Assembly (NCBI GenBank): GCA_949358305.1
Contig: OX442320.1
Location: 1,676,501 to 1,740,500 of the forward strand
Length of the DNA: 64,000 nt
Source: Strigamia acuminata
Lineage: Eukaryota; Arthropoda; Chilopoda; Geophilomorpha; Linotaeniidae
Direction of reading: 5' to 3'
The notes beneath the pieces were generated by a model. That model worked only from the letters and a program-made list of their open reading frames with translations. It did not search any database and was not told where the DNA came from. Position 1 is the first letter of the stretch, and every line of letters starts with the position of its first letter. Made by a program: the position numbers and the translations under genes. Positions 17,491 to 44,444 of this stretch are shown here, in pieces.

Positions 17491-17494
17491 ATAG

Positions 17495-21700: not shown

Positions 21701-22668
21701 CCTAAATCTGTATCTGAAATGGCAAACCTGTCCTTATTCTTTTGGAGTAGCTGCTTTATCTGCTCTTGTTGACTCTTATTCATCTTATCTTTGGCTATTG
21801 AAGAGTCAAAGTCAAAGCAATGTGCTTGCTTTTCATCCAACCCTCCAATGCCTTTGGCAGTTGAGGAGTTAGAGTCAAAGCAATTTACTTGCTTTTCATC
21901 AAATAACCCAATTTCAATGATATAATGTGCCTTACCAATCGCAGACTTCTCCTGTAGAAATATGGACTTTGATGTTGGATTTGCCACTCGAATTACGCCT
22001 TTGCCGTTCTCAAATCTCGTCAATGTCTTGCAACAGAGAATTCCAAACCTATCGATTACATTACCTAAAGGTTCCAAAAACATTTCTGTTGTTAAAGCTT
22101 TACTTAAATTAACTGGAACTACGCATTCGTGCATTGGTGGAATTGCTATATTTTTTGTCACTCTTGCTACATAATTCTGATCCACATATGTCTTATTCAT
22201 CGGGAAAACTGCTTCTACTCCACTATTTCGGCCCACAAAGATTTTTTGTAAGTCATAATCGACAACACATCTCGCAAATGTCATAAATGGGTCACCCAAT
22301 AAAAGCTGGTAATTGAAATCCTTAACTATTAAAACTTCAACTGCATACTGCAATTGTCCTATGTGAATGTTCAAATTTATCTTGCCCACTGGAGTTATTA
22401 AGTCATTACCTATTCCTCGCAATCTAATGTTTGGCGTAGGCGTGTAATTCAACTGCAAAGCTTCTGCTATTTCTTCACTCAAAAGGTTACTTTTTGCTCC
22501 AGTGTCCATGACTGCCTTTATTTCCAAATTTTTTACAATTACTGGGATTTCCAACAATGACTCCGAAATTTTTACGTCGATTATAGTGATGTTATCCTTT
22601 TTCCATCTTCTCTTCTTCTTCTTACTTCTATTTGGATGGTAACAATTTCTCTGTGGCCGTTCAGCTAG
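18757..22668 (-). CDS. Gypsy-2 pol polyprotein
   Basis: About 1,300 aa, open throughout. It overlaps the gag stop in the -1 frame at GGAAAACTAG and has no usable ATG at its start, so it is expected to be made by -1 frameshifting. Domains: aspartic protease (VMDTGAKSN near residue 55), RT (YLDDLIIFS near 490), RNase H (STDASAYGLGAI), integrase zinc region (HLGLNKTWKR to CSSCASAK) and a D,D,E core (AIDTLGSF, LSDKATEY, GLTERFNA). Very similar to Gypsy-3 pol. Although the ORF is intact, its gag is split, so the element as a whole is broken. Confidence 0.92.
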   Translation of the reverse strand, partial: LAERPQRNCYHPNRSKKKKRRWKKDNITIIDVKISESLLEIPVIVKNLEIKAVMDTGAKSNLLSEEIAEALQLNYTPTPNIRLRGIGNDLITPVGKINLNIHIGQLQYAVEVLIVKDFNYQLLLGDPFMTFARCVVDYDLQKIFVGRNSGVEAVFPMNKTYVDQNYVARVTKNIAIPPMHECVVPVNLSKALTTEMFLEPLGNVIDRFGILCCKTLTRFENGKGVIRVANPTSKSIFLQEKSAIGKAHYIIEIGLFDEKQVNCFDSNSSTAKGIGGLDEKQAHCFDFDSSIAKDKMNKSQQEQIKQLLQKNKDRFAISDTDLGRVTNFSHKIDTGDHDPIHLQPYRRSIAEKEVEAEETRKLLEQGVIRESESPWSAPVLLIKKRDGKWRFCVDWRRLNAITKKMVYPLPRIDDTLDQLAGAQFFSMMDLIQGYHQVEINEQDREKTAFTTSTGHYEFNVLGMGLCNSPAAFQKLMNKVLGNLLGKVCIAYLDDLIIFSKTFEQHLQDLDSVFEKLRIANLKVKLSKCTFGTNTIRYLGHVIDSGGISPDPRNLESVAKFPVPRNVKQLRGFLGLCSYYRKFILGFADISKPLVNLTKKDEKFDWGPPHEKAFKRLRTALVTVPVLAHPNFAQPFIISTDASAYGLGAILKQKINNQEHVICYASRLLSQAEQNYTATERECLAILFGIEKYRPYLYGKKFTIITDHSALQWLKSVKNPNGRLARWSLQLVDYDYDVLHKSGKKHTDADALSRIPEEVGGEEIIEMPSLALENLNLPAEQRKDQKILEIITTLQKNEQLPRNRRRTLKQFVLQGDTLFKKKKFDSLNTEELLYVPQHLRRCVLVEMHDGLTGAHLGLNKTWKRIRTRFFWPKIYRDVRNHVLSCSSCASAKTMTTPPKGLMQPWSTVSRPFERVAIDTLGSFPTSDTGNKYVFIITDYLSRTAIARAAPACTALEAAKALVYEVMVKEGSPREILSDKATEYRNEMIKEISALFKSVHKSTSGYHPRTNGLTERFNATLAKMLQNYVNKDHTDWDEFLPFLLFSYNTGVHETTGYSPYYLMRGYEADLNVDVNLNLPRKEFTLRTSRFIREARRISNERIQEQGEKSKKRFDLDRVHVEFDLGELVYLKTPNRKVGLSEKLLPQFSGPYEIVRRTAPNDYEIRSSSGKKMDIVNIERLKPYKAREEISDDIMKPLTSKKVTFAEDLTETDKQNEIVTKNNENSSNRPVSAATERFIDDDDQISLRGLFENELVTKTEKNQLPKPSPGVASAVDNDAHARPPEIGSFRSRRLRKQDRRDYTTFY

Positions 22669-22952
22669 TTTTCCGTCTGTTGTTGCGTGTTAACTGTAGG
22701 ATTAGGACCTTCTCTTCTACGTCTTCTTGGTCTTCCTGCATTACCACCTCTATCCTGTTGGTATCTTGGTGGATTATAGAACTCGCAACTAAAATGATGA
22801 TAACATCCGCACGAACGAGTATTATTATTATTACTATTGTTGTTATTGTTAGTATTATAATTTTGACTACCACCTCTATTAATACTTCCTTGAAAATTCT
22901 TATATTGAAAATTCTGACCCCTTTGCTTCATTGGTGCATACCACTGGCTTCC
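22665..22952 (-). pseudogene. Gypsy-2 gag, C-terminal part (split)
   Basis: Gag tail with WYAPMKQRGQN, an Asn-rich linker and TRSCGCYHHFSCE, matching TRSCGCWHRYGCE in Gypsy-3. It begins at the TA that flanks the DNA-element end (22953-22954); the N-terminal half is at 7043-8628. It ends TAG at 22665-22667, overlapping pol. Confidence 0.85.
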
Positions 22953-22971
22953 TACCCAGGTAGCATTATAT
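22953..22971 (+). mobile_element. End of the TA-duplicating DNA element (second end)
   Basis: TA followed by CCCAGGTAGCATTATAT, the inverted partner of the end at 7040. Gypsy-3 inserted 17 bp inside it with ATAT duplicated; the element resumes at 32001 with ATTGGGCCAAT-type satellite, just as the other end runs into such satellite. Confidence 0.75.
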
Positions 22972-23476
22972 TGTTACGCGGTAGAGCCGTACCGTGTATC
23001 GGCTGGCTCTGCTCGCTCTGTTTAGGCATTTAATACAATGAATTCTCACTAGACGGCGCTGTGCACCTAATAAGATGCACAGACCGTTCAACTTAGTTGA
23101 TAGGGGGAATAGGAGTTTACTTAGTGAGTTGATTAAGCCAGAGAGCTCAGATCTCTTTTGAGTCTCAACCTGTTACCTTCACCTACTACTGCCAGCCGGT
23201 TGACGGTCAGGCAGGACTAGGTTTTCTAAACTGAATTGAATTGACAACAGCATCATCCTTATTTAGTTATTTATTTGATTTGAATGAACCATTTATGTGT
23301 TTTAGGTTTAATAAATGAACAAATGCAATAAGAGCTGATGACCGAACATTTACATTAGTAAATGTCCGACTTTGAATAATAAAGCCAATAGGCATTTTAC
23401 ATATAAAACCCTGTGTCATTCTTGATTAAATTCATGTCACGTAGGACTAAATCAATCCCCATTTAGCCACGTAACA
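22972..23476 (+). repeat. Gypsy-3 5' LTR
   Basis: 505 bp, TGTTACGCGG to CACGTAACA. A TATAAAA box lies near 23402 in ACATATAAAACCC, followed by TGTGTCATTC where transcription probably starts. It matches 31496-32000. Confidence 0.95.
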
Positions 23477-23478
23477 AC

Positions 23479-23492
23479 TGGTGGAGATGCGG
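23479..23492 (+). promoter_or_regulatory. Gypsy-3 primer-binding site
   Basis: TGGTGGAGATGCGG starts two bases after the 5' LTR. It is complementary to a tRNA 3' end including CCA and nearly identical to the Gypsy-2 site. The tRNA species was not identified. Confidence 0.65.
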
Positions 23493-24018
23493 TCTCGATT
23501 GTAGCCCGTTTAGATTTAAAATCCCATTAAAATTGGATTAAAATTGCCAAAATAATTTAATAAAAATCTAGAAATAATTAGTGAAAATTGCTGATTTTAT
23601 AGCAATTATCTTGAATGACTCAGAGTTGGTAAAAACAAGTGAAGTCACAGTTTGAATATTTAATGTCATTGTGTGAAATAATTTGCATTTTGGAAATGAA
23701 AATAGAGTTTAATTGTTTATTAGGGATTAATAAATTGATTTACAATTGTTATATTTAGAATAAATAAAATATATAGTGTATAAATACTAATTTTGATATT
23801 TATTTACAGGAAATTTTGTGAATTTATAGGAATTGAAAAATTGTTTTGAAATGTTATTGTTGGATTATTTTCTTTGTAATTTTGAGTGTAATATTTATGA
23901 ATTATATGCTAATAACACTTTAAGTTTTCAGGTAATGAATTCGTGTTAGTGTATTCAGTGTTTAGAAAGAGATTAGTGCTAGTGAAGTGAATAAAAAAGT
24001 GCAATATAAGGCTTCAGT

Positions 24019-25350
24019 GTGGATAAGCCAGTGAAATTGTCACAATTCAACTTGGATAATCTTCAGGATTTACAAAATTTGCAGTCACCTGAACCAAATT
24101 TGAAAAATATCACCACTAGAAGAAGTAAAAACGCTAAATCCGAATCTGACACTGAACCTCAGAAGGAAGATAAAGAAGTCCGATCTCAACCTCAATCAAT
24201 ATTACAGAAATTGGATTTTGCTACTCCAGCAATAAAATTAATTCCACAAAAAGGTTTAGAAGAAATAATAAAGACATTTACACCAGTAAAAACTAAACCA
24301 GTTCCAACCTCAATTAAACCAAATTTTCCGAAAATGACATCATCACAGACTCCAACGGACGTATTGACCGACTTATTGAAGAGTTTGGTAGTGCAGAAGC
24401 GACCTGTTGTCACTTATGATACAGAAAAGGGCAACATCGACCAATGGCTTGTGGCATATGAAGCTACAATAGGAACAGATGATGAGAGAGTAAAACATCT
24501 AGCATTAGCCTTAAAGACTGATGGATTGGCATGGTTTGTGGAACAACTAAAGAAGAATCCGACATGGAAATGGACGGATTGGAAACCACAGATCGAGAAA
24601 AAATTTAGAAGAAGCCAAGAAAATGTTTACAATACTCTCCACTTCATGAAACACAAAGAGGGTACAGCAGATGCCTTCATGAAGAAAGTCTTGGCCGAAT
24701 GTGCGTTTATTCTACCAGAAATGACTGAAACTCAGAAAATAAATTATGTTTACCAAGGTTTGAAGCCTGCAATGCAGAAGATGATGATAACGGTATTTCC
24801 ATCGACGTTAGAAGAAATGGAACAGAGACTTAAATTGTATGAAAGTCACAAAACAGAAGAACCAGCGGATCTACTGCTCACAATGTTCAAAAAAGTTGTA
24901 GATGAAAAGGTGAACCCTACGACAACAGGTATACTGTCTGGAACAGGGGGATCCCCAGTAAGCTACGCCGAGTTATTAGCTGAAAATATTAAATTAAAAC
25001 AGCAAAAGCTCGTGAGTGAGTCAGTAGAGCCACAACAATCGGTTCCATTATTCATACAAGGCGAGTGGTATATTCCGGCATCGCAGCGCGGACAGAACTT
25101 TAGAGGTAGATACAACAGAGGTAGACAACGGTCAAATAGTAGTCCGACAACAACGCGTTCATGTGGATGTTGGCATCGTTATGGTTGTGAACATAACACA
25201 TCAGCGCCACAGGAGCAACAATCTCAAGAAAATAGAGGGAACCCAAATAACAGAAGGTGGTTTAAGAAGAAAAGGACACAAGGGGGCGGTAAAACGAACC
25301 CTAATCCTAAGCAGAACCCACAACAAGATCAACGAGAAGAGGAAAACTAG
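24019..25350 (+). CDS. Gypsy-3 Gag
   Basis: About 443 codons of open frame, the structural capsid protein of the particle. Visible: a charged N terminus, a capsid-like helical core (DNIDQWLVAYEA-type motif, then LKTDGLAWFVEQL and KINYVYQGLKPAM), an Arg/Gly-rich stretch, and the Cys/His cluster TRSCGCWHRYGCEH instead of a standard CCHC knuckle. The frame begins at GTG (24019) after GGCTTCAG with TAA just upstream. There is no ATG until residue 106, yet the N terminus is conserved with Gypsy-2. Either non-AUG initiation or splicing at TTCAG could supply a start. Ends TAG at 25348-25350 in GGAAAACTAG. Confidence 0.88.
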   Translation: MDKPVKLSQFNLDNLQDLQNLQSPEPNLKNITTRRSKNAKSESDTEPQKEDKEVRSQPQSILQKLDFATPAIKLIPQKGLEEIIKTFTPVKTKPVPTSIKPNFPKMTSSQTPTDVLTDLLKSLVVQKRPVVTYDTEKGNIDQWLVAYEATIGTDDERVKHLALALKTDGLAWFVEQLKKNPTWKWTDWKPQIEKKFRRSQENVYNTLHFMKHKEGTADAFMKKVLAECAFILPEMTETQKINYVYQGLKPAMQKMMITVFPSTLEEMEQRLKLYESHKTEEPADLLLTMFKKVVDEKVNPTTTGILSGTGGSPVSYAELLAENIKLKQQKLVSESVEPQQSVPLFIQGEWYIPASQRGQNFRGRYNRGRQRSNSSPTTTRSCGCWHRYGCEHNTSAPQEQQSQENRGNPNNRRWFKKKRTQGGGKTNPNPKQNPQQDQREEEN

Positions 25351-28300
25351 TGGGTCGGCCACAAGGAAGATGTCACCATCAACAAGGAAGATGTTGTCAT
25401 CCAAAGAAGAAAAGAAAGAATAGAAGAGAGAAGATAATCGTAGTCAAAATGAACATTTCAGAATCTCTATTGGAAATTCCAGTAATAGTGAACAACATGG
25501 AAGTCAAGGCAGTTATGGACACTGGAGGAAAACGCAATGTTATCAGCGAAGAGCTTGCTGAGGCTTTACAGTTGAAGTACCCGCCAAGCCCAAATATACG
25601 ATTACAAGGGGTAAGCGGAGAACTCGTGACTCCAATAGGAAAAGCCAAGATGAACATTACAATTGGTGAATTAACATACAGGATCGAGGTCCTGATTGTT
25701 AAAGGATTTCATTATGAATTACTGCTAAGTGACCCATTCATGCTGTTCGCGAAGTGTGTGTTAGACTACGACAAACAAAAAATCTTTGTGGGCCGAACTA
25801 GTGGAAAGGAAGTGTCATTTCCAATGAATAAAACTTTTGTTGATCAGAATTATGTTGCGAGGGTAATGAAGAACATCACAATTCCACCAATGCACGAATG
25901 CATTGTTCCCATCTATTTGAATAAAGCAATAACATTGGACATGTTTGTACAACCATTACATAATGTCACTGATAGATTTGCTGTGATAGGTTGTAAAACT
26001 TTAACAGATTTCAAGAACGGAAAAGGCATCATTCGAGTGGCTAACCCAACCAAGAAGACAGTCTTTCTGAAGGAGAAGTCAGCAATCGCAAAAGCTTATT
26101 ATGTGGTTGATGTTGGGGTGTTTGACGAAAAACAGGTACACTGTTTTGACTTTGACTCCTCAATAGCAAAAGACAAAATGAATAAAGACCAACAAGAGCA
26201 AATGCGACAACTTCTTCAAAAGAATCAAGACAGATTTGCTGTTTCTGACAAGGATTTGGGAAGAGTTCAAGTGTATAAGCATAAAATCGATACTGGAGAC
26301 CATGAACCAATACATTTGCAACCGTATCGTCGTTCTATGAAGGAAAAAGAAGTCGAAGCTGAGGAAACAAAGAAATTGCTTGATATGGGAGTGATAAGGG
26401 AATCAGAAAGTCCCTGGAGCGCGCCTGTATTGCTAATAAAGAAAAGAGATGGTAAGTGGAGATTTTGCGTTGATTGGAGACGTTTGAATGCGATAACAAA
26501 GAAAATGGTGTACCCATTGCCAAGAATAGATGACACTTTAGATCAGTTGGCAGGTGCACAGTTCTTCTCCATGATGGATCTTATTCAAGGATATTATCAA
26601 GTCGAAATAGATGAACAAGATCGTGAAAAAACAGCGTTTACCACTTCAAGCGGACATTTTGAGTTTAACGTCCTAGGAATGGGATTATGCAATAGTCCAG
26701 CAGCTTTTCAAAAGTTAATGAATAAAGTTTTAGGCAACCTCCTAGGCAAAGTTTGTATAGCGTACATTGACGACCTTATCATTTTCTCTAAAACATTCGA
26801 TCAGCATTTGAAAGATCTAGACAACGTTTTCGACAAGCTTAGACAATCTAACTTAAAGGTGAAGTTGAGCAAGTGCACATTTGGGACGAACACCATCAAG
26901 TATTTGGGACATGTCGTGGACTCTGAGGGTATATCACCAGACCCTAGGAACTTGGAATCCGTCGCGAAGTTTCCAGTTCCTACTAACCTCAAACTTCTTC
27001 GAGGATTCATAGGGCTCTGTTCGTATTACAGGAAGTTCATTCCAGGTTTTGCGGACATATCCAAGCCCTTAGTCAATTTGACGAAGAAGGACGAGAAATT
27101 TGATTGGGGCCCACCTCATGACAAGGCCTTTAAAACATTAAGGACCGCCCTTATCACCGTGCCAGTGCTTGCGCACCCTAATTTTGAAGAACCCTTCATG
27201 GTATCGACCGACGCGAGCGCATATGGTCTTGGAGCAGTGTTGAAACAGAAGATAAACAAACAAGAACATGTGATAGCTTATGCCAGCAGACTTCTCAGCC
27301 AAGCAGAACAGAATTACACATCCACGGAAAGGGAATGTCTGGCTATTCTGTTTGGAATTGAAAAGTACCGACCTTATCTGTATGGTAAGAAGTTCCAGAT
27401 AATTACAGACCATTCGGCACTTCAATGGCTAAAATCAGTCAAAAACCCCAATGGCAGACTAGCTAGATGGAGCCTACAGCTAGTAGACTTTGATTTCGAT
27501 GTGATCTACAAGAGCGGAAAAGCGCACAAAGATGCCGACGCCTTGAGTAGAATTCCAGAAGATTTAAGCGAGGAAGAAAACAAAATAGTTCCCTCACTTT
27601 TACTCGAACAGCTCGACCTTCCTGCTGAGCAGCGTAAGGACAAGAAGCTACTGGAATTGATCACCGCAATGAATCAAGTAGAGCAACTTCCGAAGAAGAG
27701 AAGACGTCCTCTAAAGCAGTTCGTCCTTCTCGATAACGTGTTGTTTAGGAAGAAAAATTCTCTGAATTCCCTAGACACGGAAGTAAATCTGTTATACGTT
27801 CCACAGCATTTGAAAATGGCCGTTCTTGAAGAAATGCATGATGGACTGACGGGTGCTCACTTGGGCCTAAACAAAACATGGAAGAGAATGAGAACAAGAT
27901 TCTTCTGGCCCCGGATATATAAAGACGTTAGAAATTACGTACTTTCTTGTCCACATTGCGCGAGCTCGAAATCAATGACGACAGCGCCAAAAGGTTTAAT
28001 GCAGCCGTGGTCTACGATATCTAAACCTTTCGAGAGGATTGGAATCGACACACTGGGAAGTTTTTCGACCTCCGACAAGGGCAACAAGTATGTTTTCGTA
28101 ATGACAGATTATTTGTCGCGGACAGTGATTGCTAGAGCAGCTCCAGCATCAACAGCGTTGGAAGCAGCTAGAACTTTGCTTTATGAGTTAATGTTGAAGG
28201 AAGGCAGTCCGAGAGAAATCCTGAGCGATAGAGGCACAGAATACAGAAACAAAATGGTGGAAGAAGTATCAAATATGTTTAAAGCCCTACATAAAACCAC

Positions 28301-29294
28301 TTCAGGGTACCATCCAAGGACCAATGGCCTCACAGAAAGATTCAATGCGACGTTTGCAAAAATGTTGCAGATTTATGTTGATAAGGACCAGAGGGACTGG
28401 GATGATTTTTTGCCATTTTTGCTTTTCTCGTATAATACCGGTGTGCACGAGACGACAGGATATACACCTTATTATCTTTTGAAAGGATATGAAGTAGATT
28501 TGAACGTGGACGTAAACCTCAACTTACCTCAGAAAGAATTCACCTTGCGAACCTCGAAATTCATCAGAGAAGCTAGGAAAATAGCAAATGAAAGGTTGGA
28601 GTGGCAAGGAGAAAAAAGCAGAAAAAGATTCGATCAAGGCCGAGTTCGTGTGGAATTTGACCCAGGAGAGTTAGTATATCTCAAAACACCCAATAGGAAA
28701 GTTGGGTTAAGTGAAAAACTCCTGCCACAATTCTCAGGCCCATTCGAAATAGTAAGAAGAACCGCGCCAAATGACTATGAAATTAGAAGTTCAAATGGAA
28801 AGAAAACAGATATTGTTAATATTGAACGATTAAAACCGTATAAACCCAGAGAAGAAATTCCAGCGGAGATATTAGAAGAATTGACAGCTAAAAAAGTCAC
28901 ATTTGCTGATGAAACTGCAACACAGAGTGAAAAACAACAAGAAATTGAAGAAAACACGTCAATTTCGCCAATTCCGATCGCTAAAGAACGATTTATTAGC
29001 GATGACGATCAAATTTCGTTAAAAACACTCTTTGAACCTGAAGAAAATACAACAAAAGTGTCAAATTTCCCAATTCCAAGCGAAACAGAGCGATTAAAAG
29101 CGCTCTATGGACCGAAAGAAATTATGGAAAGATGGCAAAACGAAGACGAACGGAAAAACAAAGAAAATCAATTGCGAAAACCGCCGACAGGTGTCGCTGA
29201 CGCAGTCGATGACGCGTCGCCGCCTGAAATCGAGAGTTTCCGGTCACGTCGCCTTCGCAAACAGGCTCGTCGTGACTACAGTGGATTGTGTTAA
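25347..29294 (+). CDS. Gypsy-3 pol polyprotein
   Basis: About 1,315 aa in the -1 frame relative to gag, entered at GGAAAACTAG. Domains in order: aspartic protease (VMDTGGKRN, near residue 57); RT (RFCVDWRRLNAIT, FSMMDLIQGYYQ, YIDDLIIFS near 472); RNase H (STDASAYGLGAV near 620, TDHSALQWL); integrase zinc-binding region (HLGLNKTWKR to CPHCASSK, near 830-872); and a D,D,E core (GIDTLGSF near 900, LSDRGTEY near 960, GLTERFNA near 996) with a basic C-terminal part. No chromodomain is visible. All catalytic motifs are present. Confidence 0.95.
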   Translation, partial: LVGRPQGRCHHQQGRCCHPKKKRKNRREKIIVVKMNISESLLEIPVIVNNMEVKAVMDTGGKRNVISEELAEALQLKYPPSPNIRLQGVSGELVTPIGKAKMNITIGELTYRIEVLIVKGFHYELLLSDPFMLFAKCVLDYDKQKIFVGRTSGKEVSFPMNKTFVDQNYVARVMKNITIPPMHECIVPIYLNKAITLDMFVQPLHNVTDRFAVIGCKTLTDFKNGKGIIRVANPTKKTVFLKEKSAIAKAYYVVDVGVFDEKQVHCFDFDSSIAKDKMNKDQQEQMRQLLQKNQDRFAVSDKDLGRVQVYKHKIDTGDHEPIHLQPYRRSMKEKEVEAEETKKLLDMGVIRESESPWSAPVLLIKKRDGKWRFCVDWRRLNAITKKMVYPLPRIDDTLDQLAGAQFFSMMDLIQGYYQVEIDEQDREKTAFTTSSGHFEFNVLGMGLCNSPAAFQKLMNKVLGNLLGKVCIAYIDDLIIFSKTFDQHLKDLDNVFDKLRQSNLKVKLSKCTFGTNTIKYLGHVVDSEGISPDPRNLESVAKFPVPTNLKLLRGFIGLCSYYRKFIPGFADISKPLVNLTKKDEKFDWGPPHDKAFKTLRTALITVPVLAHPNFEEPFMVSTDASAYGLGAVLKQKINKQEHVIAYASRLLSQAEQNYTSTERECLAILFGIEKYRPYLYGKKFQIITDHSALQWLKSVKNPNGRLARWSLQLVDFDFDVIYKSGKAHKDADALSRIPEDLSEEENKIVPSLLLEQLDLPAEQRKDKKLLELITAMNQVEQLPKKRRRPLKQFVLLDNVLFRKKNSLNSLDTEVNLLYVPQHLKMAVLEEMHDGLTGAHLGLNKTWKRMRTRFFWPRIYKDVRNYVLSCPHCASSKSMTTAPKGLMQPWSTISKPFERIGIDTLGSFSTSDKGNKYVFVMTDYLSRTVIARAAPASTALEAARTLLYELMLKEGSPREILSDRGTEYRNKMVEEVSNMFKALHKTTSGYHPRTNGLTERFNATFAKMLQIYVDKDQRDWDDFLPFLLFSYNTGVHETTGYTPYYLLKGYEVDLNVDVNLNLPQKEFTLRTSKFIREARKIANERLEWQGEKSRKRFDQGRVRVEFDPGELVYLKTPNRKVGLSEKLLPQFSGPFEIVRRTAPNDYEIRSSNGKKTDIVNIERLKPYKPREEIPAEILEELTAKKVTFADETATQSEKQQEIEENTSISPIPIAKERFISDDDQISLKTLFEPEENTTKVSNFPIPSETERLKALYGPKEIMERWQNEDERKNKENQLRKPPTGVADAVDDASPPEIESFRSRRLRKQARRDYSGLC

Positions 29295-29711
29295 GGTTTT
29301 CTGAGACGAACCGGGTTTACTGTGTGACTCAAAGAAACCTAAAGCATTAATAACAGCAGCAGTTGATTTGTGTGTGATTCCGTAAGTGAAGAGAGTGAAA
29401 TTTAGAACGAATTTGGCGAACAAATAGCTTAAAAACGAAACGAATTTATCGCGAATTTTGTGAAATAATAACATCGCGAAATGGAAATTTAGGCTTAAAT
29501 AATTGTGTTAAAACTTCAAAATGAAATTTTAGTGTGTGCATACATTAACAAGTGACTAATTAGTTGAAAAATTGTTAAATTTAGTGTAAATTAGTGCAAC
29601 ATGAAATGTTAAATGAAATAACGAATGGAAATTGAAAAATTTTTTGTGAAAATTTTGGATTAATGAATTAATTTATTTTATTTTCTTTTCAAATAATATA
29701 TTAGGATCCGA
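29295..29711 (+). promoter_or_regulatory. Pol-to-ORF3 spacer with splice acceptor
   Basis: No gene here. The end is T-rich (TTTATTTTCTTTTCAAATAA) and runs into ATATTAG|GATCCGAATGG, a good 3' splice site seven bases before the ORF3 ATG at 29712. The same arrangement occurs before the third ORFs of Gypsy-1 and Gypsy-4. Confidence 0.5.
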
Positions 29712-31085
29712 ATGGACGAAATGGCAAGCAAATTTGATCGGATGGATGTGCGTAGTGATAGTGACAGCGATGCGGATTCGGTTTGCTCGATGCAAGTGGG
29801 CGATCTTTTGGAACGTCAACTTAAGAAAGGCGATGACTTGGAAATTTATTTAGCAAATAAGCCGAGCACAAGTAAAACTTTGGACGAATTGGTTAACTGC
29901 CCACGCCCGTTTACAGAAGGAAAACAAAAGGCGGAGGAAGACAAAAAGAAATATGCAGGACCATTAACAAAGGGTGAAGAAGGCTTATTGCGTCGTCGTC
30001 GTAAAAATCGACAATTGAAACGAGATAAGAAAGCACAAAAGAAGAAAGTGTTTAATGAGCAATCGAAAAGAATCCGGGAAGAAGAAATGCGTCACACCGT
30101 TGATCGAAACAAACGCCGATTAAATGATTTGCGAATGGAGCACCGGAATATGGTCAACGCCATTAGAGCCAGGAAATTAAAAGGAGTGATGGGATTGCCC
30201 GACTACCAGTTGTGGAGAACAGGGGCGAATGCTTTGCTGATCCAGGAGGCGAAGATAAGAAAAAATATTTTAAAAGCCATCGCCCTAGCGAGAAGAGAGT
30301 CCTTCCAGGACCCTAGTGTAGTGTTTCCCACTCCTATACGGGTATACCGTGTGGAGTTGGACGCTGCACGACAGGTCCAGGCTCTCGGACTTGCATTAGA
30401 CTATAGTAATGCGCCAAAATATGACTTAGCATTCGACGCCGTAGGTTGTCCGCCGATTAAAGTCATGAACTATCAGATGGCAGCATTAGGCGACCTAACG
30501 CCGGGACGACAGAGCTGGACGTATGACAGCGTCGTTGATCATTACCTCCAACTGTTAGAAGAGCGATATCCCATATTAGCACCAATTCAATCTGAGTGGG
30601 TCTTCAAAATGGTGGACCCAGCTAAACGAAAGGAAGCGATCTATTGGCTAATGAAGAGACTTCCAAGTGCTCAAAAGAAGATTTGGGTGTTTCCAGTTCC
30701 TATTGAAGAGCATTGGCAGCTTTTCATAGTGGATTGGCGGAAAAAGCCAACCCAATACGTGCTTTATGACCCAAGTGGACCAATAGAGCGCACATATCCA
30801 AAGTGGGAATCTTTAAGATACTCGTTGATGGATGCAGGAGTAAAGTTTCCAAACAAATTCATACGTTGGGACCCGCCACGTATGCACCAATTGGATAATG
30901 ACAGCTGTGGCCCAACCATACTCTACTTCGTTAGAAGATACGTTGAAGACCGGGACTTAATGCAGTTTGGGGAGCCGTGTGAGTTACGCTTACGATTTGT
31001 GTATGAGATTGCAAATCGTGAAATTCTCCCATTCGAGTTGATCAAAGAAGAGGATAAGAAGGATCAAGCGGAAGGAGGAGAGTGA
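29712..31085 (+). CDS. Gypsy-3 ORF3, ULP1/SENP-like cysteine protease (C48-type)
   Basis: 457 aa with an ATG start. Residues 1-195 are charged and basic, partly coiled-coil-like, with RRRRKNRQLKRDKKAQKKK (about 94-112) as a likely nuclear signal. Residues 265-445 read as a papain-like ULP1 fold: WTYDSVVDHYL (269-279, like the WL-D-I-Y motif); IWVFPVPIEEHWQLFIVDW with His334-Trp335; YVLYDPSG with Asp353; and MHQLDNDSCGP with Gln393 and Cys399. All four catalytic positions are present. Known relatives cut SUMO or related tags, or process viral proteins (adenain type); the substrate here is unknown. It sits in the env position, in frame and undamaged, with a decayed relative in Gypsy-2. Confidence 0.85.
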   Translation: MDEMASKFDRMDVRSDSDSDADSVCSMQVGDLLERQLKKGDDLEIYLANKPSTSKTLDELVNCPRPFTEGKQKAEEDKKKYAGPLTKGEEGLLRRRRKNRQLKRDKKAQKKKVFNEQSKRIREEEMRHTVDRNKRRLNDLRMEHRNMVNAIRARKLKGVMGLPDYQLWRTGANALLIQEAKIRKNILKAIALARRESFQDPSVVFPTPIRVYRVELDAARQVQALGLALDYSNAPKYDLAFDAVGCPPIKVMNYQMAALGDLTPGRQSWTYDSVVDHYLQLLEERYPILAPIQSEWVFKMVDPAKRKEAIYWLMKRLPSAQKKIWVFPVPIEEHWQLFIVDWRKKPTQYVLYDPSGPIERTYPKWESLRYSLMDAGVKFPNKFIRWDPPRMHQLDNDSCGPTILYFVRRYVEDRDLMQFGEPCELRLRFVYEIANREILPFELIKEEDKKDQAEGGE

Positions 31086-31479
31086 AGTGAACTTTAACTT
31101 CTTTAAGTGAATAAGTGTAAAATCAACACGAACTTTGAACATTTTTTTTTGTGTGTGTGTTTTTTTTTTATTTTATAGAAAATTGAAAACTGAAAAAAAA
31201 GTAATATAAAACAAAAAACCAAAAAGTGTTATCATTGATGAAAAGTGTTAATTTTATTTAATTTTAAACTTTGAATATTATTTCCAATGTAAAAGTGTAA
31301 TAAAAAGTGACTATGACATTTATAAACATTGAAAAGTGAGTTATATGATATTTTTGTAAAAATAAGGATGATGAAAAGAGATTCTCAAAATTGTAAAATT
31401 GAGTTTATGATTTGAATTTTTTAATGTGAAAGGAGATGCGTTAGTTAGAACAATTCATTGTTTTTCGAGAGACCGAAAA

Positions 31480-31495
31480 AATTAAAGGGGGGGGC
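31480..31495 (+). promoter_or_regulatory. Polypurine tract of Gypsy-3
   Basis: AATTAAAGGGGGGGGC directly precedes the 3' LTR start TGTTACGCGG. Confidence 0.8.
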
Positions 31496-32000
31496 TGTTA
31501 CGCGGTAGAGCCGTACCGTGTATCGGCTGGCTCTGCTCGCTCTGTTTAGGCATTTAATACAATGAATTCTCACTAGACGGCGCTGTGCACCTAATAAGAT
31601 GCACAGACCGTTCAACTTAGTTGATAGGGGGAATAGGAGTTTACTTAGTGAGTTGATTAAGCCAGAGAGCTCAGATCTCTTTTGAGTCTCAACCTGTTAC
31701 CTTCACCTACTACTGCCAGCCGGTTGACGGTCAGGCAGGACTAGGTTTTCTAAACTGAATTGAATTGACAACAGCATCATCCTTATTTAGTTATTTATTT
31801 GATTTGAATGAACCATTTATGTGTTTTAGGTTTAATAAATGAACAAATGTAATAAGAGCTGATGACCGAACATTTACATTAGTAAATGTCCGACTTTGAA
31901 TAATAAAGCCAATAGGCATTTTACATATAAAACCCTGTGTCATTCTTGATTAAATTCATGTCACGTAGGACTAAATCAATCCCCATTTAGCCACGTAACA
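31496..32000 (+). repeat. Gypsy-3 3' LTR
   Basis: 505 bp, essentially identical to 22972-23476. It ends GTAACA and is followed by the duplicated ATAT. Confidence 0.95.
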
Positions 32001-32795
32001 ATATATTGGGCCAATATTGGACCAATATTGGGTATCTTGGGGTTCTGCTGGCCAATATAACCAACCTTCAACCAATGTAGGTCCAATATTGGGAACATAA
32101 TATTGGCCAATATTTGGAATACAATATTGGCCCAATGTTGGCTAAGGATTGGCAAGCCAATATTGGGTTTCCACGCCAGACCCAATGTTGGCCCGATATT
32201 GGCTGGCAATATTGGCCCAATATTAACTAGCCAATTATTAGCCAATATTGGCTGTCGGCAGGCAGCCATTGATTGGCCATTATTGGGAATACAATATTGG
32301 CCCAATGTTGGCTAAAGATTGGCAAGCCAATATTGGGTTTCCACGCCACACCCAATGTTGGCCCAATATTGGCCGGCAATATTGGCCCAATATCAACTAG
32401 CCAATTGTTAGCCAATATTGGCTGTCGGTAGGCAGCCATCGATTGGCCAATATTGGGAATGCAATATTGGCCCAATGTTGGCTAAAGATTGGCAAGCCAA
32501 AATTGGGTTTCCACGCCAGACCCAATGTTGGCCCAATATTGGCCGCCAATATTGGCCCAGTATCAACTAGCCAATTGTTAACCAATATTGGCTGTCGATA
32601 GGCAGCCATCAATTGGCCAATATTCTGAATACAATATTGGCCCAATGTTGGCAATGGATTGGCAAGCCAACATTGGGTTTCCACGCCGGACCCAATGTTG
32701 GCCCGATATTGGCTGGCAATAATGACCCAATATTAACCACCCAATTGTTAGCCAATATTGGCTGTCAGTAGGCAGCCATCGATTGGCCAATATTC
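32001..32795. repeat. ATTGGCCCAAT satellite array, about 169-bp units
   Basis: About four units of roughly 169 bp, marked by GAATACAATATTGGCCCAAT near 32117, 32286, 32455 and 32625 and by GGCAGCCATCGATTGGCC. It uses the same TTGGCCCAATATTGG words as 6482-7020 but with a different unit length, and follows directly from the DNA-element end interrupted by Gypsy-3. The open frames in it are repeat translations, not genes. Confidence 0.85.
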
Positions 32796-34583
32796 ATAAC
32801 TCGATCGCAAGAACACGGCATGGTGAAACTAAGCATATGATCGCTCAAATGCGGCCAAAAAGCGCTTAGTTTCCCGTCGAAACTAGGCGTCGATCGCCGG
32901 CCGCATTCCATCGCAAGAACGCCACCGCGACGTCGTGGAAAGATTCTCTCGCTATCGACGCGACGGGTAACGGGGAACCATTGTGTTTCACGTTCACCGT
33001 TCCCAAACCCATTCATCTGCCACAAAAACTGCCGCTGCCCCAGAGTTATAGCACATTGAAACTTTTTAGTGACTCGTTTTAATGTTATTTTTTTTTCGAT
33101 TTTCGGCTCGATTAAATTGTTGGTTTTGAGTGTTTGTTGGTCGTCACGTACGCGTGACATTACCGCCACTGTCTTCATTATTATAATTGAATAATAAAGA
33201 AATACACACTTTTACCGGTATTTAATTTTTTTTAAAGTTCTTATTGAGTCGACGTGGACTTAGATGCGGGAGTCGATGGTGGAGTCGATGCCGACCCAAC
33301 CGCATCGATTCCTGCATCGAAATGTCAACACCGTCCTCAAAAAATTAAAGTTTAAATATTTCGTTTTTCGGAAATTAAATAGAAGTAAATTGAATTAAAA
33401 ATTCCAAAAAGTTGCGCATATTTTTATTTACGAAGAAGTAGAAACGAATGAGAAACAATGCGCCATGACGAATAGTGCATGATCGCGCATCTGATCAATG
33501 CGTCTTTTCTCATTCAGAGAAAATGTTTAATTTGCATACAAATTGTAATTTAATGCGAATAAATATAATATTTAATTTTTTTAAAATTTAATTACGAGTA
33601 TGTATTTGTTTATTGATTGGAACAAAACGGAATGAAATAATAAACTGTTGACTGTAAAATTGAAAAAAAAACATGCAGCATAGTTAATTTTTTTTACTGC
33701 CGTGCCCCTCGTGCCGATGGTGTACGCCATGCACTTTCCTACGACCATTCGCATCGATAAATAAAATGTATCGATATATATACTTTTAAATTTTTGCAGC
33801 CAGTTGAACGAGATAGAAGGACGAACTTTGCTCTAAGATGGCGATATTAAAACTTGTTTTAACAATATTTTTTCTCGAACATTTTCCTTGCCGCATTTGG
33901 ATCGCCAAACAGATTGTATCCGTGGATACTGGATATGGATAGGATGCTATAAGATGACTCGTCGTAAAAAAATTATCTATATGCAAAATGTAACGATCAT
34001 AAATATCGTAAATTTAAAACAATCTACAACAATATGTCAAATAGATGAACTAACAAATAAGAAAGTGAAAAAGAACAGTTCCGGATCTCGAACAATGTTG
34101 ATTTGGCCGACGTAAATTTGTTGGAGTCGTCGCGCTCTTTTTCGACTTTGTCTGAATCACTCGAACCGCATTTAGATGGCTCTTGTGGTTCGTCGACTTT
34201 TCGCCGGTATCAGCGTGCCGCCATTAGAATACACCAACATATAACAATGATTATAAATGCTTAATTTAAATTTTGGAGTAAACACAAGTCGAGGTGCTCG
34301 TTCATGTGATTTTCTTCAATCTGAAGCGAGCACACGGGACAGGATTGGGATGAAGACCGATCGTTCGTTTGGTTATTATTGGAAATTTCAGCGAATTCGT
34401 CTCGTCAGAACTGTGGATTTTCTTTTCGATCTGGCCACTGAATACTGTATGTAACTTAAGAGGCGGACGTGTCGCCTGCGGATCTAAATAACTTGGAGTG
34501 TCACAACGCCGGGTCTCGGCATGCTCGTTCTTTTCGATTTTGTTTTGTCGCTTCATTTCGACGGTTGCACGATTGTTTCGGGG
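32796..34583. other. Unassigned intergenic DNA with dispersed repeats
   Basis: No gene is supported. 32840-32930 contains CTTAGTTTCCCGTCGAAAC near AATGCGGCC/GGCCGCATT words that recur around 35125-35200, marking a dispersed repeat family. The rest is AT-rich with short open frames lacking domains. Confidence 0.5.
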
Positions 34584-35240: not shown

Positions 35241-35711
35241 TGTAGCAGAGGAGTGCGCTCACAGTATAAAATACTGTGTGTGGAAGCGAGTTTAAATGCC
35301 GAAACACGGCTAATATGAGCGCAATGACGTGCGCGCACCTCCAGCGCTTGAAAATGGTGGAAAATAAAGTCACTGCACTCTAAAGTGCTCATGAGTGACA
35401 AACACAATGTAAAAATAAACTAAATGTTTAATAAAAACGAAAATGCTTACATAATGTGGTCCATTTAGATGGAGAAAATACATGAGTGCTTGCTGGCATG
35501 CAAGCGGCCATTGTGATTGTGAAAAACATACATGCACACCATCTGGTGTTAATAATAAGTAATACAAAAGTAAACAGTATAGAGGCAGCATTATGCCCAA
35601 TGTTAAATAATGAAATAAATCCTAATAAATACACTAGGCTGCATAATGCAGTAATACATTAAGAAATGTGCAAAACAAGTACGGAGGACTGTTTGGCATT
35701 GATAAACAACA
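35241..35711 (-). repeat. Copia-1 3' LTR
   Basis: 471 bp, on the plus strand TGTAGCAGAGG to GATAAACAACA, matching 41579-42049. A TATAAAATA word near 35264 is close to the likely transcription start. Confidence 0.92.
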
Positions 35712-35919
35712 ATTTCCCCCTTCGATGGCAAATAGCCGCAAAAATAAAGAATAAGTTAAGGGAAAAACTTTAAATGTAACTTTACATAGAATAATAATAA
35801 TGGAAATAATAATTCGGAACATCGAGCCGGGTACTGTTAAATTAATCACTACGGAAGCCCGAAAATTCCCACTGGAACTCGATGATCCTCAAAATTCGGG
35901 TAAAACTAAATTAAGAATG

Positions 35920-38900
35920 TCACGACAGGTTGAAATTGAAAATCCGGGAAATCAGGAGACGCAGTTGAGATGAGCCCAACCATTTGGTAAAGATGTCTGC
36001 CACGTTCATTGATCCGGGGACTTTGCGCAATTGGAATGCACCTGCTGTGTACCATTCCCGAATCCAATGAAATTTCACTCGGATATGTTTCGTTTTACTG
36101 TTCTCCACGTCATTTGATGTGAATTGGATGGAAGAAAGCGCATCGGAGAACACTAAAGGTGGTGAAGATCTATTCAGCATCGGGACGGAACTGTAGACGT
36201 AATCCAGCCAATAAAGCTCACGGACGCACTCAACGAGGGCGACAAACTCCGCCTCCATCGTTGAGCACGCCACGCTGGTCTGTTTTCTACAATTCCATCC
36301 GATGGGGACGTTTCCAATAAAAGCTATATACCCGCCGAAACTCAAAGAAGTGCTGACTTCGGTGGCCCAAGACGCGTCAGTATATCCCCATAGCTGTCCA
36401 TTGGAACAATTTGTCAGTTCAATTGCATAATCCAAAGTATTGCCAACATAGCGCACAACCTGCATGAGCGCCTTGATGTGAGTGTGGTTGTAGCAATTGT
36501 TGAATTGTGACAACATTATCACTGAGAATAATATATCAGGTCGTGTCCTCGATGCGAGGAAGAGAAGAGAGCCAATTAACGAACGATAAGGAAATTCTGG
36601 CAAGTCCTCTTTCGACCCTTTGACGAGCGTCGTTCCTGGTGTTACTGGGACCTTGATGAGTTTATCGGCGATAATTTCAAATTTCTTGAGAATCTTCTGT
36701 ATGTATGCACGTTGGATGATGAAGATTCCTTTGGGAGTACGGATGAACTCTACACCTAAGAGTTTCGTAATTGGTCCTAAATTCACGACATCGAATTTGG
36801 TGCTGATGAGCGCAATTAATTGTGTAAGGACGTTATCCGTCGCGTAAAATAGAACTATATCATCGACGTATATTAACATCACGGCGGAAGTTCCGTATAT
36901 GTATACACAGTTGCATCCTGGTAATCTGCGAAATCCTAAATCGCGCAATGTTTGATCTAATTTCTCAAACCATTGGCGCCCGGACTGGTGGAGACCATAG
37001 AGCGACTTTATCAGGAGCCATACATGATTTGGATTTGAACATGTTGCGCCAGCTGGAATGCGCATATATACTTTGTGCGCAAGATCGCCGTATAGGTACG
37101 CGCACTTCACATCTAAATGCGCGTCCTTCCACCCTTTGAGGACTACTAATAGGCAGAAAAATAGGCGTATGAGAACAAAGTTGACAACAGGGCTAAAGAC
37201 TTCATCGTAGTCTACACCTAAAGTTTGGCGAAAGCCCTGTGCCACTAATCTGGCGCGATATCTGGCTGGTTTGCCTAGAGCATCTTCCTTCAGTTTGAAG
37301 AGCCACTTGCACCCTAATATGGTTGTATTTTCCGGTTTAGGGACCTCTTCATAGACGCCTCTTTCTGCAAAAGTGTCTAACTCTTCATTAATGGCTTCCT
37401 GCCATTTGGTTGCATCCGGAAATCTTACAGCCTCTGCGTAACTTGTGGGATCACGACGACAAAGGTGTACTCTGGGAAGTGGTGGCGGAAGATTCTCTAA
37501 TTCATATTCCATGTTGCCAAAATAAAATAGTTCAGGATCATAAGGAATGTTGTTCATGTGACAGAATTCCTCAACGTCACCCCTAGAACGTAATCGGAGT
37601 CCTGCTTCTGGGAAATAATAAACATCGACTTTGAGTTTTCCAGGTTCCTGTACTTTGCGCAAATGTTCCTCCCTTTTCCAGTGTCTACACTCAGTATCTC
37701 CACCAATGTAACGCCATTTATATGCAGTTGCAGCTCCAGTTGGAGGTGGACCATGGTGGGCTGCTTGATGAGCTTGTGGCGCATTTCCACGAGAGCCTCG
37801 ACGAGCATTTACAAAACTCGGAGGTGAACCAGGTGGTGTATGACTTGGTGTATTGCCGGGAGTAATGACTGGACTCGGCACCGGCGTTATTACTGGAGTA
37901 ATTAGAGGGGCTCGAATAGGAGATCCCGGAGTTGGAGTGGCTGGCGGAGTTCGGAATTGAGCACCCGCTAGGGTCGAATCGTCAGAGTCATAGTCCGTAT
38001 CACATTCATCCTCTGAATCCGGAAATTTGGGCCAATCAGTATATTGTAAACCGTCGTCAAACCTCACATGCGGTTGTGAAATGCGCAATGGTTGATAAGT
38101 TTGCGATGTTTGATGCGATTGGTCCTCATCTGGTCCCATCCACGGTTGCTGCGGACCTCGATAATGGTTGGAACGTTTGTAGGATTGCCGTTCGTCAATT
38201 TGGACGTGAATGGATTCGATGACTTTGTTATCCGTTGGATTCCAGACGCGATAACCTCGCGTTGTCGTGGCGTATCCAACCAAATAGCCCTCCCAAGCTC
38301 GTGGATCCAATTTGTCCCTGCCAGGAGCCGTGTGATGTACCCAGCATTTGGAGCCTAACTTCCGGAGGTGTCGGAGCGAAAGGGCACGTCGTCGCCACAA
38401 AATATAGGGCACCTCATTTTTGAGACGAGAATGAGGGCACCGATTCTTTATATAAGAGAAAGTCACTGCGAATTCCGCCCAAAGTTCATTCGGAAGTCCG
38501 GTTTCATCCAGAATAGCACGCGTGTAATCCGCCATTGTGCGATTTATGCGTTCCGCTGTGCCATTCATAGCGGGGCTATGTGGATTGGTCCGTTGGGCTT
38601 GAATCCCAGTTTCCTTTAAATAGCGGTCGAATTCGTTTGATAAGAACTCCCCTCCTCGGTCAGTTCGGATGGCCTTCACTCGTTTGCCTGTCACTCGTTC
38701 GATTCGTGTGACGTAGTCTTTGAACAATCCAAATACTTGGGATTTTTGAGCCATCGGAAATATCCAGGCATAGCGCGTGGCGTCGTCGATAATCGTTAGC
38801 ACATAACGCGCGGCTCCGTAGGAAGTCGTTCTTGATGCTCCCCACACGTCCATGTGTAGGAGATCTAAAGCCTTTGTAGAAATAGGATGTTCATCAGGTT

Positions 38901-40725
38901 TATGGGAAATGCGCGTTGATTTCGCAATTCGACAATGATTACACGAAAGTTCCTTGTTCACTTCTGCCGGTGTCACTCCATAAACTTGGTTATTTCCGGC
39001 CAAAAGTTTCATTGCATTGGTGTGAAGATGACCCAATCTGCTGTGCCATATCCCAGTCGCATCCTTTTTAACCGTAGGCGCTGCAACTTTCTTTTGATTC
39101 GCCGACTTTAGATTCGGTTTGGAAGTTGGAGGAATTGCCATTAATGTGTCGGCAAAGGATGGGACTTGAGGTAATGGTTTGGTAGGAACAGGTACAGGAG
39201 GTGTCTTGGACTGGGTTACTTTGATTGGTGCAGGTGGAGGAATTTCATTTGGCAAAGGAGGGAATTCGAGCCGAAAATCAGTAAAAAGTTCAGGATTTTT
39301 CGACTTTTTCTTTGCTCTTGGATACTGGATGAAATCCTCTTCTGTCGTGACTAATGTTCGGGTCGGAGCGATTGACTGCGCAATAGGTACATCCACTGTT
39401 GACATCAGTGTTGAAGGTGGGCACAAGCCGTCGACATAATAAAGGCCGCCCTTTTCTTTGGCCCGAAGCATTGGATGCTTAATGTCGGATTTGTAGACAT
39501 AGACGTCTCCATTCCAAATATGGATGTGATGTTTAGTTTTGTCCATTTTTGACACTGAAATCAAATTCGCCTCGAATTTTGGCGCATACAACACATCTTG
39601 GAGATTTACGACACATTCTACGTTGTTGATCATGGAGATAATCTGGACTTTGCCCTTTCCTAGAACTTCGGAATGTCCTTGACCTAATGCTATGTTAAAG
39701 GGCACAACTTTAACAAAGTCCTGAAACCAAGCCTGGACGTGGCACACATGATCTGTTGCCCCACAATCCACTATCCATTCATGTGATTGCATGAAGTGAA
39801 TTGTGGGCATTGGTTGTGGCGCACTGGCGAAAAAGTTCGTTTCTCGTCTTGCGCTGGAATTCCCCCTTGGTCTAGAATCATCTCGGTTTGAGTTCTTATT
39901 GCGTTTATGGCTTGAACTCCTCGGCTTCCTTTGAAGTGAAGCTGCCGGTTGATTCTTGTCATCTCGGCGCGATGGCAAAGGACATTTATTTGCGTAATGG
40001 CCAAATTCCTGGCAATTAAAACACTGCACCGAAGATAACGGTCGAGAGGGACGAGAACGATTTCTCCCACGTTGCTGTTTTTCACCAGCATACGCACGAG
40101 AATGTTTTGAATTGTCCACGTCGCGTGAATCCATAGCTTTGAGTCGCATATGTTCCGCGAGTAACTGTTCGGACACTTTCTTTGGTGTGAATTCACCGTT
40201 GGGCAAGTGATATGTTGTGAATGAAATCTGTGAATATTCACGAGGCAATAAGTCCAAGTATTGGTAAGCGTGGTGATCAGGCGAAGTTATCTCTCCGATA
40301 TCCTTCATTTGGCGGACATGATAGTCAACGCGTCCTAAGAAGTCGGCCATATCTTCGCCCTGTTCTAGGCGCAAATTCAAAAATTCGCGGCGCATGGCTG
40401 CCTGTCGTGCGCGAGATGATGGCGCATAAATGTTGGCTAAAATGTCCCATGCTTCCTTCGGGGTTTTACAATCATCTAGCGCAGACTTCTTCGCCTCGCT
40501 TACAGAACAGTATATTAAGCCTAATGCCTTGGCTTTACGACGCTTGTATTTCTTCTTTTCCTTGTCACCCGCGGTTTTAAGGAATTCTGCCTCTTCTTCT
40601 TCAGTTACGTGTTCCCATAACTCTTCACTTCTCAGCACCATGCGCATTGAGCGCTGCCATAGTTCGTAGTTTCCTACGCTGAGAATCGGAAGGCGTCCGG
40701 AATTGGCTTCGACGGATTTTGACAT
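35920..40725 (-). CDS. Copia-1 gag-pol polyprotein with MBD-like module
   Basis: 1,601 aa from the ATG at 40725; a single intact frame as is usual for Copia. Order: UBN2-type Gag; CCHC knuckle CFNCQEFGHYANKC (near 235); protease with WIVDCGATDH (near 318); pre-integrase HSRLGHLH and CNHCRIAK; integrase D,D,E (LLHMDVWGA, RTDRGGEF, MNGTAERINR, about 622-725); Pro/Thr-rich linker; a module at about 1003-1072 with VDVYYFPEAGLRLRS and EEFCHMNN that resembles a methyl-CpG-binding domain; RT (GCKWLFKLK, YGLHQSGRQW, IYVDDIVLF near 1287); and RNase H (CSTMEAEF, NVADIFTKWL). It is related to Copia-3, which shares the same module. Confidence 0.95.
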   Translation of the reverse strand: MSKSVEANSGRLPILSVGNYELWQRSMRMVLRSEELWEHVTEEEEAEFLKTAGDKEKKKYKRRKAKALGLIYCSVSEAKKSALDDCKTPKEAWDILANIYAPSSRARQAAMRREFLNLRLEQGEDMADFLGRVDYHVRQMKDIGEITSPDHHAYQYLDLLPREYSQISFTTYHLPNGEFTPKKVSEQLLAEHMRLKAMDSRDVDNSKHSRAYAGEKQQRGRNRSRPSRPLSSVQCFNCQEFGHYANKCPLPSRRDDKNQPAASLQRKPRSSSHKRNKNSNRDDSRPRGNSSARRETNFFASAPQPMPTIHFMQSHEWIVDCGATDHVCHVQAWFQDFVKVVPFNIALGQGHSEVLGKGKVQIISMINNVECVVNLQDVLYAPKFEANLISVSKMDKTKHHIHIWNGDVYVYKSDIKHPMLRAKEKGGLYYVDGLCPPSTLMSTVDVPIAQSIAPTRTLVTTEEDFIQYPRAKKKSKNPELFTDFRLEFPPLPNEIPPPAPIKVTQSKTPPVPVPTKPLPQVPSFADTLMAIPPTSKPNLKSANQKKVAAPTVKKDATGIWHSRLGHLHTNAMKLLAGNNQVYGVTPAEVNKELSCNHCRIAKSTRISHKPDEHPISTKALDLLHMDVWGASRTTSYGAARYVLTIIDDATRYAWIFPMAQKSQVFGLFKDYVTRIERVTGKRVKAIRTDRGGEFLSNEFDRYLKETGIQAQRTNPHSPAMNGTAERINRTMADYTRAILDETGLPNELWAEFAVTFSYIKNRCPHSRLKNEVPYILWRRRALSLRHLRKLGSKCWVHHTAPGRDKLDPRAWEGYLVGYATTTRGYRVWNPTDNKVIESIHVQIDERQSYKRSNHYRGPQQPWMGPDEDQSHQTSQTYQPLRISQPHVRFDDGLQYTDWPKFPDSEDECDTDYDSDDSTLAGAQFRTPPATPTPGSPIRAPLITPVITPVPSPVITPGNTPSHTPPGSPPSFVNARRGSRGNAPQAHQAAHHGPPPTGAATAYKWRYIGGDTECRHWKREEHLRKVQEPGKLKVDVYYFPEAGLRLRSRGDVEEFCHMNNIPYDPELFYFGNMEYELENLPPPLPRVHLCRRDPTSYAEAVRFPDATKWQEAINEELDTFAERGVYEEVPKPENTTILGCKWLFKLKEDALGKPARYRARLVAQGFRQTLGVDYDEVFSPVVNFVLIRLFFCLLVVLKGWKDAHLDVKCAYLYGDLAHKVYMRIPAGATCSNPNHVWLLIKSLYGLHQSGRQWFEKLDQTLRDLGFRRLPGCNCVYIYGTSAVMLIYVDDIVLFYATDNVLTQLIALISTKFDVVNLGPITKLLGVEFIRTPKGIFIIQRAYIQKILKKFEIIADKLIKVPVTPGTTLVKGSKEDLPEFPYRSLIGSLLFLASRTRPDILFSVIMLSQFNNCYNHTHIKALMQVVRYVGNTLDYAIELTNCSNGQLWGYTDASWATEVSTSLSFGGYIAFIGNVPIGWNCRKQTSVACSTMEAEFVALVECVRELYWLDYVYSSVPMLNRSSPPLVFSDALSSIQFTSNDVENSKTKHIRVKFHWIREWYTAGAFQLRKVPGSMNVADIFTKWLGSSQLRLLISRIFNFNLS

Positions 40726-41578: not shown

Positions 41579-42049
41579 TGTAGCAGAGGAGTGCGCTCAC
41601 AGTATAAAATACTGTGTGTGGAAGCGAGTTTAAATGCCGAAACACGGCTAATATGAGCGCAATGACGTGCGCGCACCTCCAGCGCTTGAAAATGGTGGAA
41701 AATAAAGTCACTGCACTCTAAAGTGCTCATGAGTGACAAACACAATGTAAAAATAAACTAAATGTTTAATAAAAACGAAAATGCTTACATAATGTGGTCC
41801 ATTTAGATGGAGAAAATACATGAGTGCTTGCTGGCATGCAAGCGGCCATTGTGATTGTGAAAAACATACATGCACACCATCTGGTGTTAATAATAAGTAA
41901 TACAAAAGTAAACAGTATAGAGGCAGCATTATGCCCAATGTTAAATAATGAAATAAATCCTAATAAATACACTAGGCTGCATAATGCAGTAATACATTAA
42001 GAAATGTGCAAAACAAGTACGGAGGACTGTTTGGCATTGATAAACAACA
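41579..42049 (-). repeat. Copia-1 5' LTR
   Basis: 471 bp, partner of 35241-35711. On the minus strand it ends CCTCTGCTACA, a mimic of the tRNA 3' end complementary to the adjacent primer site. Confidence 0.92.
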
Positions 42050-44439: not shown

Positions 44440-44444
44440 CGTTT

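Follow-up and report, generated by a model that had tools for sequence, protein, structure and literature searches.

The DNA analyzed here is a window of 64,000 nucleotides from Strigamia acuminata, and it contains a complete-looking Ty3/Gypsy element at positions 22972–32000. The element is bounded by two long terminal repeats (LTRs) of 505 bp on the plus strand (TGTTACG...CGTAACA; 5′ LTR at 22972–23476, 3′ LTR at 31496–32000), which differ by one mismatch in 505 positions, and it is flanked by the target-site duplication ATAT (22968–22971 and 32001–32004). A probable primer-binding site, TGGTGGAGATGCGG, is located at 23479–23492 (plus strand), and a purine-rich tract at 31476–31495 (plus strand), which is probably the polypurine tract, abuts the 3′ LTR. 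Both candidates are properly placed and recur in the window's second Gypsy family, where the near-identical sequence TGGTGGAGATTGCGG follows the LTR on the minus strand.

The gag gene (24019–25350, plus strand) encodes 443 amino acids counted from GTG and is open. Its match to the Pfam family Ty3_capsid is weak (E 7.4e-4, 19.4 bits) and does not reach the cut-off of 29.1. The likewise open pol gene (25350–29294, plus strand) begins before gag has ended, in a different frame, and codes for 1314 amino acids with protease (PR), reverse transcriptase (RT), RNase H and integrase (IN) in this order, the protease domain being of the aspartic type with the motif DTG. The element thus combines paired LTRs and a short target duplication with a gag gene followed by PR-RT-RNase H-IN, as is typical for Ty3/Gypsy, and it is apparently young and intact. 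Downstream of pol, an A+T-rich non-coding spacer of 417 nt (29295–29711, plus strand; 28% G+C) leads to a third open reading frame, ORF3, at 29712–31085 on the plus strand, the end of which is separated from the 3′ LTR by 410 nt. With regard to a possible spliced subgenomic message, a rough frequency-based scorer ranked the AG splice acceptor just upstream of ORF3 only 143rd of 680 AG sites and a leader splice donor at 23932 6th of 462.

ORF3 and Its Predicted Product

ORF3 runs from ATG to stop over 457 codons and is not interrupted, which bears out the sequence-only reading, where an intact ORF of this length had been described in the pol–3′ LTR interval of a Gypsy element with open gag and pol. 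A chance ORF was ruled out as its source, since mononucleotide shuffling of the region 29295–31495, repeated 500 times, gave no stop-free run longer than 147 codons. The codon usage of ORF3 correlates with that of pol at 0.57, which is inside the range of 457-codon pol blocks compared with the rest of pol (minimum 0.51, mean 0.62).

The N-terminal part of the predicted protein is basic, as had been noted earlier: residues 85–160 (29964–30191, plus strand) include 28 lysines and arginines against 10 aspartates and glutamates. This region is predicted to form a long helix, by a model that is mostly of low confidence in its other parts, and may serve as a nuclear-localization region. No membrane span was found in ORF3, the highest Kyte-Doolittle mean over 19 residues being 0.72. 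Because no stretch is hydrophobic enough to span a membrane, the product is unlike an envelope protein, and an env identity was ruled out. The earlier comparison with env applies to position only.

The C-terminal part contains Trp269 (WTYD), His334 (EEHWQLF), Asp353 (VLYDPSG) and, within the motif QLDNDSCGP, Gln393 and Cys399. A spacing pattern of the form HW-D-Q-CG, which was composed post hoc with ORF3 already known, was present in 4 of 20000 shuffled ORF3 proteins, and in a stop-free search of all six frames of the whole window it was matched by ORF3 alone.

Homology to SENP/ULP1 Proteases

Searches against the sequences of the PDB pointed to the C48 peptidases. With full-length ORF3 (best E 2.2e-4) the top 14 of 17 matches were SENP1, SENP2, SENP3, SENP5 or ULP1, and with the domain (best E 7.4e-5) the same proteins made up the top 14 of 15 matches. 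As a control the domain was reversed, and all of its 11 matches were designed TIM barrels with a best E of 2e-9, without any SENP or ULP1. Designed TIM barrels have a fourfold internal repeat, and their E-values are probably inflated by summing over these repeats. Since this control reached such a value, single E-values need care, and a shuffle test against SENP1 was made for this reason. The local score of the domain against the SENP1 fragment was 112, whereas 5000 shuffles had a mean of 29.9 and a maximum of 53, none of them reaching 112, and the reversed domain scored 26; SENP1 had been chosen as the best PDB match, which somewhat favors it in this comparison.

The stretch aligned to SENP1 covers ORF3 residues 265–439 (30504–31028, plus strand). 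Identity was found at 51 of 168 aligned residues, including W269, D272, H334, W335, D353, Q393, C399 and G400. The His-Asp-Cys triad and the oxyanion glutamine are thereby present in order and aligned to a C48 member of solved structure, which rules out a chance motif and agrees with the catalytic signature that had been read from the sequence at H334, D353, Q393 and C399. Following the SENP structures, we take the histidine, aspartate and cysteine to be the catalytic residues and the glutamine to form the oxyanion hole. In SENPs the Gly-Gly of SUMO is flanked by two tryptophans, and therefore a ubiquitin-like substrate is favored for ORF3.

In Pfam, the C-terminal 217 residues matched two families alone up to E 10, namely C48 and C57, both of which belong to clan CE. 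The match to C48 (Ulp1, PF02902) has an E of 0.032 and 14.5 bits and lies under the gathering cut-off of 20.7, and that to C57 (E 0.22) is also under its cut-off; full-length ORF3 had no Pfam match at E 1. As 14.5 bits are less than 20.7, ORF3 is termed C48-like and homologous to SENP1, not a formal member of PF02902. In view of the reversed-domain control, the homology to SENP1 rests mainly on the shuffle test and on the agreement of the PDB and Pfam searches. The earlier interpretation is thus supported in part: a C48-like protease with all catalytic residues and a basic N-terminal part occupies the ORF3 position, whereas protease activity, SUMO specificity, nuclear entry, an effect on silencing and processing of Gag are putative. 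Taken on its sequence, the gene very probably encodes a SENP/ULP1-like protease.

Structures predicted from the single sequence had low confidence, with a mean pLDDT of 45.3 for full-length ORF3 and of 42.0 for the domain. When the domain model was searched with Foldseek, 281 matches up to E 10 were listed, of which none reached E 0.001. ORF3 had no match in PHROGs and two weak ones, far under the cut-off, in NCBIfam. In viral contigs there were 3 pattern matches for ORF3 and 12 matches for the RT-to-integrase part of pol, and in prokaryote genomes 44 matches for ORF3, none of which was confirmed. This absence of viral and prokaryote relatives is as expected for a eukaryotic element.

A Second Gypsy Family With an ORF3 Remnant

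The pol gene of the second Gypsy family (18757–22689, minus strand) is open and its product is 74% identical to that of the first in the BLAST alignment and 78% identical by aligned positions. Comparison of the two pol genes gave a pS of 0.78 and a pN of 0.13, the synonymous sites being saturated. The 3′ LTR of this family (17495–17965, minus strand) is 98.7% identical to 9258–9728.

An ORF3 remnant is located between this pol gene and the 3′ LTR, at 18336–18452 on the minus strand. It comprises about 42 codons, matches ORF3 residues 409–450 (tblastn on the window, E 3.2e-5; score 88, where the best of 500 shuffles scored 61), and its frame terminates near the equivalent of the ORF3 stop. For the rest of ORF3, including the catalytic core, no significant match was found in the second-family copy. 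Over 39 aligned codons, ORF3 and the remnant show a pS of 0.97 and a pN of 0.38. In rounded counts, they differ at about 22 of 23 synonymous sites and at 36 of 94 nonsynonymous ones (Fisher p 2.5e-7); because the remnant was found by protein similarity, this test is biased toward purifying selection. From its presence in both families, ORF3 seems to be older than their split, and it is likely to belong to this Gypsy lineage as an established gene.

The second-family copy keeps an open pol gene and LTRs of 98.7% identity without the catalytic core, so that the element may not require ORF3 or may obtain its function by complementation. Either the second family dropped the gene, or this copy lost ORF3 after its insertion, or help is provided in trans.

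The first element is inserted within the second-family copy, which is circularly permuted around a BEL/Pao element (7017–9727, 9728–17494 and 17495–22971). The left part of this copy consists of the gag half and the 5′ LTR, the right part of the 3′ LTR, the ORF3 remnant and pol. The BEL/Pao element has a match to Peptidase_A17 and, given the distribution of such elements, points to an animal host; the sequence ATAG is present at both of its junctions (9728–9731 and 17491–17494). The permuted layout points either to duplication in tandem or to a join made during assembly. At both outer ends of the permuted block, 6533–7025 and 32102–32911, there are imperfect palindromic repeats of ATATTGGCCAATATTGG-like units, with four overlapping 300-nt copies at a spacing of 170 nt at 32102.

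Furthermore, the window contains two other Gypsy-type pol pieces, each followed by a long ORF. One is located at 60977–64000 on the minus strand and is followed by an ORF of 519 codons (58397–59953, minus strand) with a cysteine cluster of CxxC units, the other at 3–1199 on the plus strand and is followed by an ORF of 1091 codons (2169–5441, plus strand). Neither ORF had a Pfam match at E 0.01 or a PDB match up to E 0.1. Additionally, two pairs of direct repeats with 100% identity, one of 472 nt (35241–42050) and one of 557 nt (44444–51725), surround open frames of 1605 codons on the minus strand and 1682 codons on the plus strand, respectively. Both are likely to be LTR elements of a different kind and of very recent origin.

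Proposed Function of ORF3

The intact ORF3, its homology to SENP1, the catalytic residues, the young element and the remnant in the second family can be read from the DNA; from there we infer the activity, tag specificity, nuclear location, target and expression mode of the protein. On the favored reading, ORF3 is an accessory gene of this Ty3/Gypsy lineage, encoding a C48-type cysteine protease with a basic N-terminal part. The protein would most likely enter the nucleus and act there on proteins restricting the element, stripping them of SUMO or a related ubiquitin-like tag. The favored targets would be host factors of SUMO-dependent transcriptional silencing and, next to these, the element's own Gag or integrase. 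As a whole, this reading of ORF3 as a nuclear protease for SUMO or ubiquitin-like tags is tentative, with a probability of roughly 0.4.

In Drosophila ovaries, Piwi-guided silencing and the repression of R1 and R2 require SUMOylation (PMC8733420; PMC7676866). As transposon silencing in the fly ovary needs SUMO, a protease for SUMO encoded by the element itself is a direct and testable anti-silencing idea. An enzyme of this kind would counter SUMO-dependent silencing; that silencing in the host is based on SUMO or piRNA is assumed. The full form of this idea, in which a long-lived animal Ty3/Gypsy lineage carries at the env position a SUMO- or ubiquitin-like-deconjugating protease as an anti-silencing enzyme that undoes SUMO-dependent silencing, is possible but rather doubtful.

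An unlikely alternative with some standing is that a deSUMOylase- or deubiquitinase-like ORF3 product acts on proteins of the element itself, so that Gag or integrase is not degraded or inactivated, and is not directed against host silencing. The homology of the ORF3 domain supports such a target equally well. Moreover, the SUMO-type motif [VILMF]KxE/D is completely missing from pol at 25350–29294, where 4.6 are expected and 1.25% of 2000 shuffles have so few, and from the pol of the second family at 18760–22689, where 3.9 are expected and 1.4% of 2000 shuffles have so few. This absence is a hint that SUMO on Pol is of importance. The same absence can be turned against the proposal, as a Pol without consensus SUMO sites would need no help against SUMO, and the single motif in gag is about the chance expectation.

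ORF3 could also be a captured passenger gene without any function for the element, as the second-family copy with its open pol gene and nearly identical LTRs does without the core. This is less probable again, because ORF3 is open over its full length in a copy whose LTRs are one mismatch apart and is common to two families with saturated synonymous sites in pol. The purifying signature over the 39 aligned codons, biased as described, points in the same direction.

Improbable, too, is an adenain-like maturation protease cutting Gag or Pol. C48 and adenain belong to one clan, and Gag contains GG at two places. However, there is no obvious need for another protease acting on Gag-Pol, because Pol already has its aspartic protease with DTG. 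Adenain has a glutamate where ORF3 has Asp353, and in the sequence searches no adenain (C5) was listed up to E 10, either in Pfam or in the PDB, the nearest PDB entries being SENPs.

Finally, a host SENP-like gene could have been inserted once, by accident, into a single Gypsy copy, which is the case that the sequence-only reading had set against its own interpretation. This agrees with the one full ORF3 copy visible within the window but is highly improbable, because the second family has the remnant (18452–18336) in the equivalent place between pol and the 3′ LTR, and ORF3 is continuous with a codon usage in the range of the pol blocks.

Comparison With Known Systems

The predicted nuclear SUMO or ubiquitin-like-tag protease can be compared with known proteins and mobile elements. 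The catalytic residues and both conserved tryptophans of SENP1 and ULP1 (PDB 2iyc, 1euv) align with ORF3. Unlike in these enzymes, the N-terminal part of ORF3 is without a Pfam match. In errantiviruses such as Drosophila gypsy, pol is followed by a third ORF ahead of the 3′ LTR, and this ORF encodes the envelope glycoprotein. ORF3 has the same position, but it comprises a protease domain and no membrane span, and so differs from the membrane-spanning envelope ORF of that group.

Polinton/Maverick elements are not known to have LTRs or RT. Like the ORF3 element they combine a retrovirus-like integrase with an Ulp1-like cysteine protease, which was perhaps derived from a Ginger1-related transposon (PMC10175614). 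In contrast to the ORF3 element, they are DNA elements, and their genes include those for capsid proteins and for a protein-primed DNA polymerase.

Ginger1 transposons carry an Ulp1 (C48) domain in 8 of the 16 families of Table 1 and share with the ORF3 element the combination of a Gypsy-type integrase with a C48 domain (PMC2836005). Whereas Ginger1 elements end in terminal inverted repeats and their transposase itself includes Ulp1 as its C-terminal part, the ORF3 element has LTRs, gag, RT and a C48-like domain in an ORF separate from pol. The same source mentions Ulp1 in some Mutator DNA transposons, and some oomycete CryptonS elements are described as bearing a C48 peptidase as an additional protein (PMC3212892). 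These Mutator and Crypton elements encode C48 like the ORF3 element, yet they are not LTR retrotransposons.

Among the matches listed from the open-access literature, and within their accessible text, no LTR retrotransposon with an ULP1 ORF was found, which agrees with the earlier statement that a well-described animal Gypsy family with such a layout is not known. Protease, SUMO, ubiquitin and peptidase are words absent from the accessible text of a review on the additional ORFs of LTR elements in plants (PMC7264820), and Ulp, SUMO, OTU, cysteine and ubiquitin from that of a paper on accessory domains of retrotransposons (PMC6338049). The accessible parts of papers on a plant EPSPS locus, downy mildew and the almond genome mention ULP genes or domains, and two of them Gypsy, without an LTR element encoding ULP; in a paper on fig, C48 is a sample label and not the peptidase. 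Within these matches, C48 in mobile elements is otherwise found in DNA elements only.

LTR retrotransposons of bdelloid rotifers resemble the ORF3 element in carrying a family-specific gene for an enzyme other than env between pol and the 3′ LTR (PMC5408684). There the third ORF encodes a GDSL esterase or a DEDDy exonuclease, and no cysteine-protease ORF3 is named in the accessible text. C48 proteases recur in DNA transposons. An LTR retrotransposon with a separate and apparently conserved C48 ORF would be a further case in which unrelated mobile elements are served by one type of gene.
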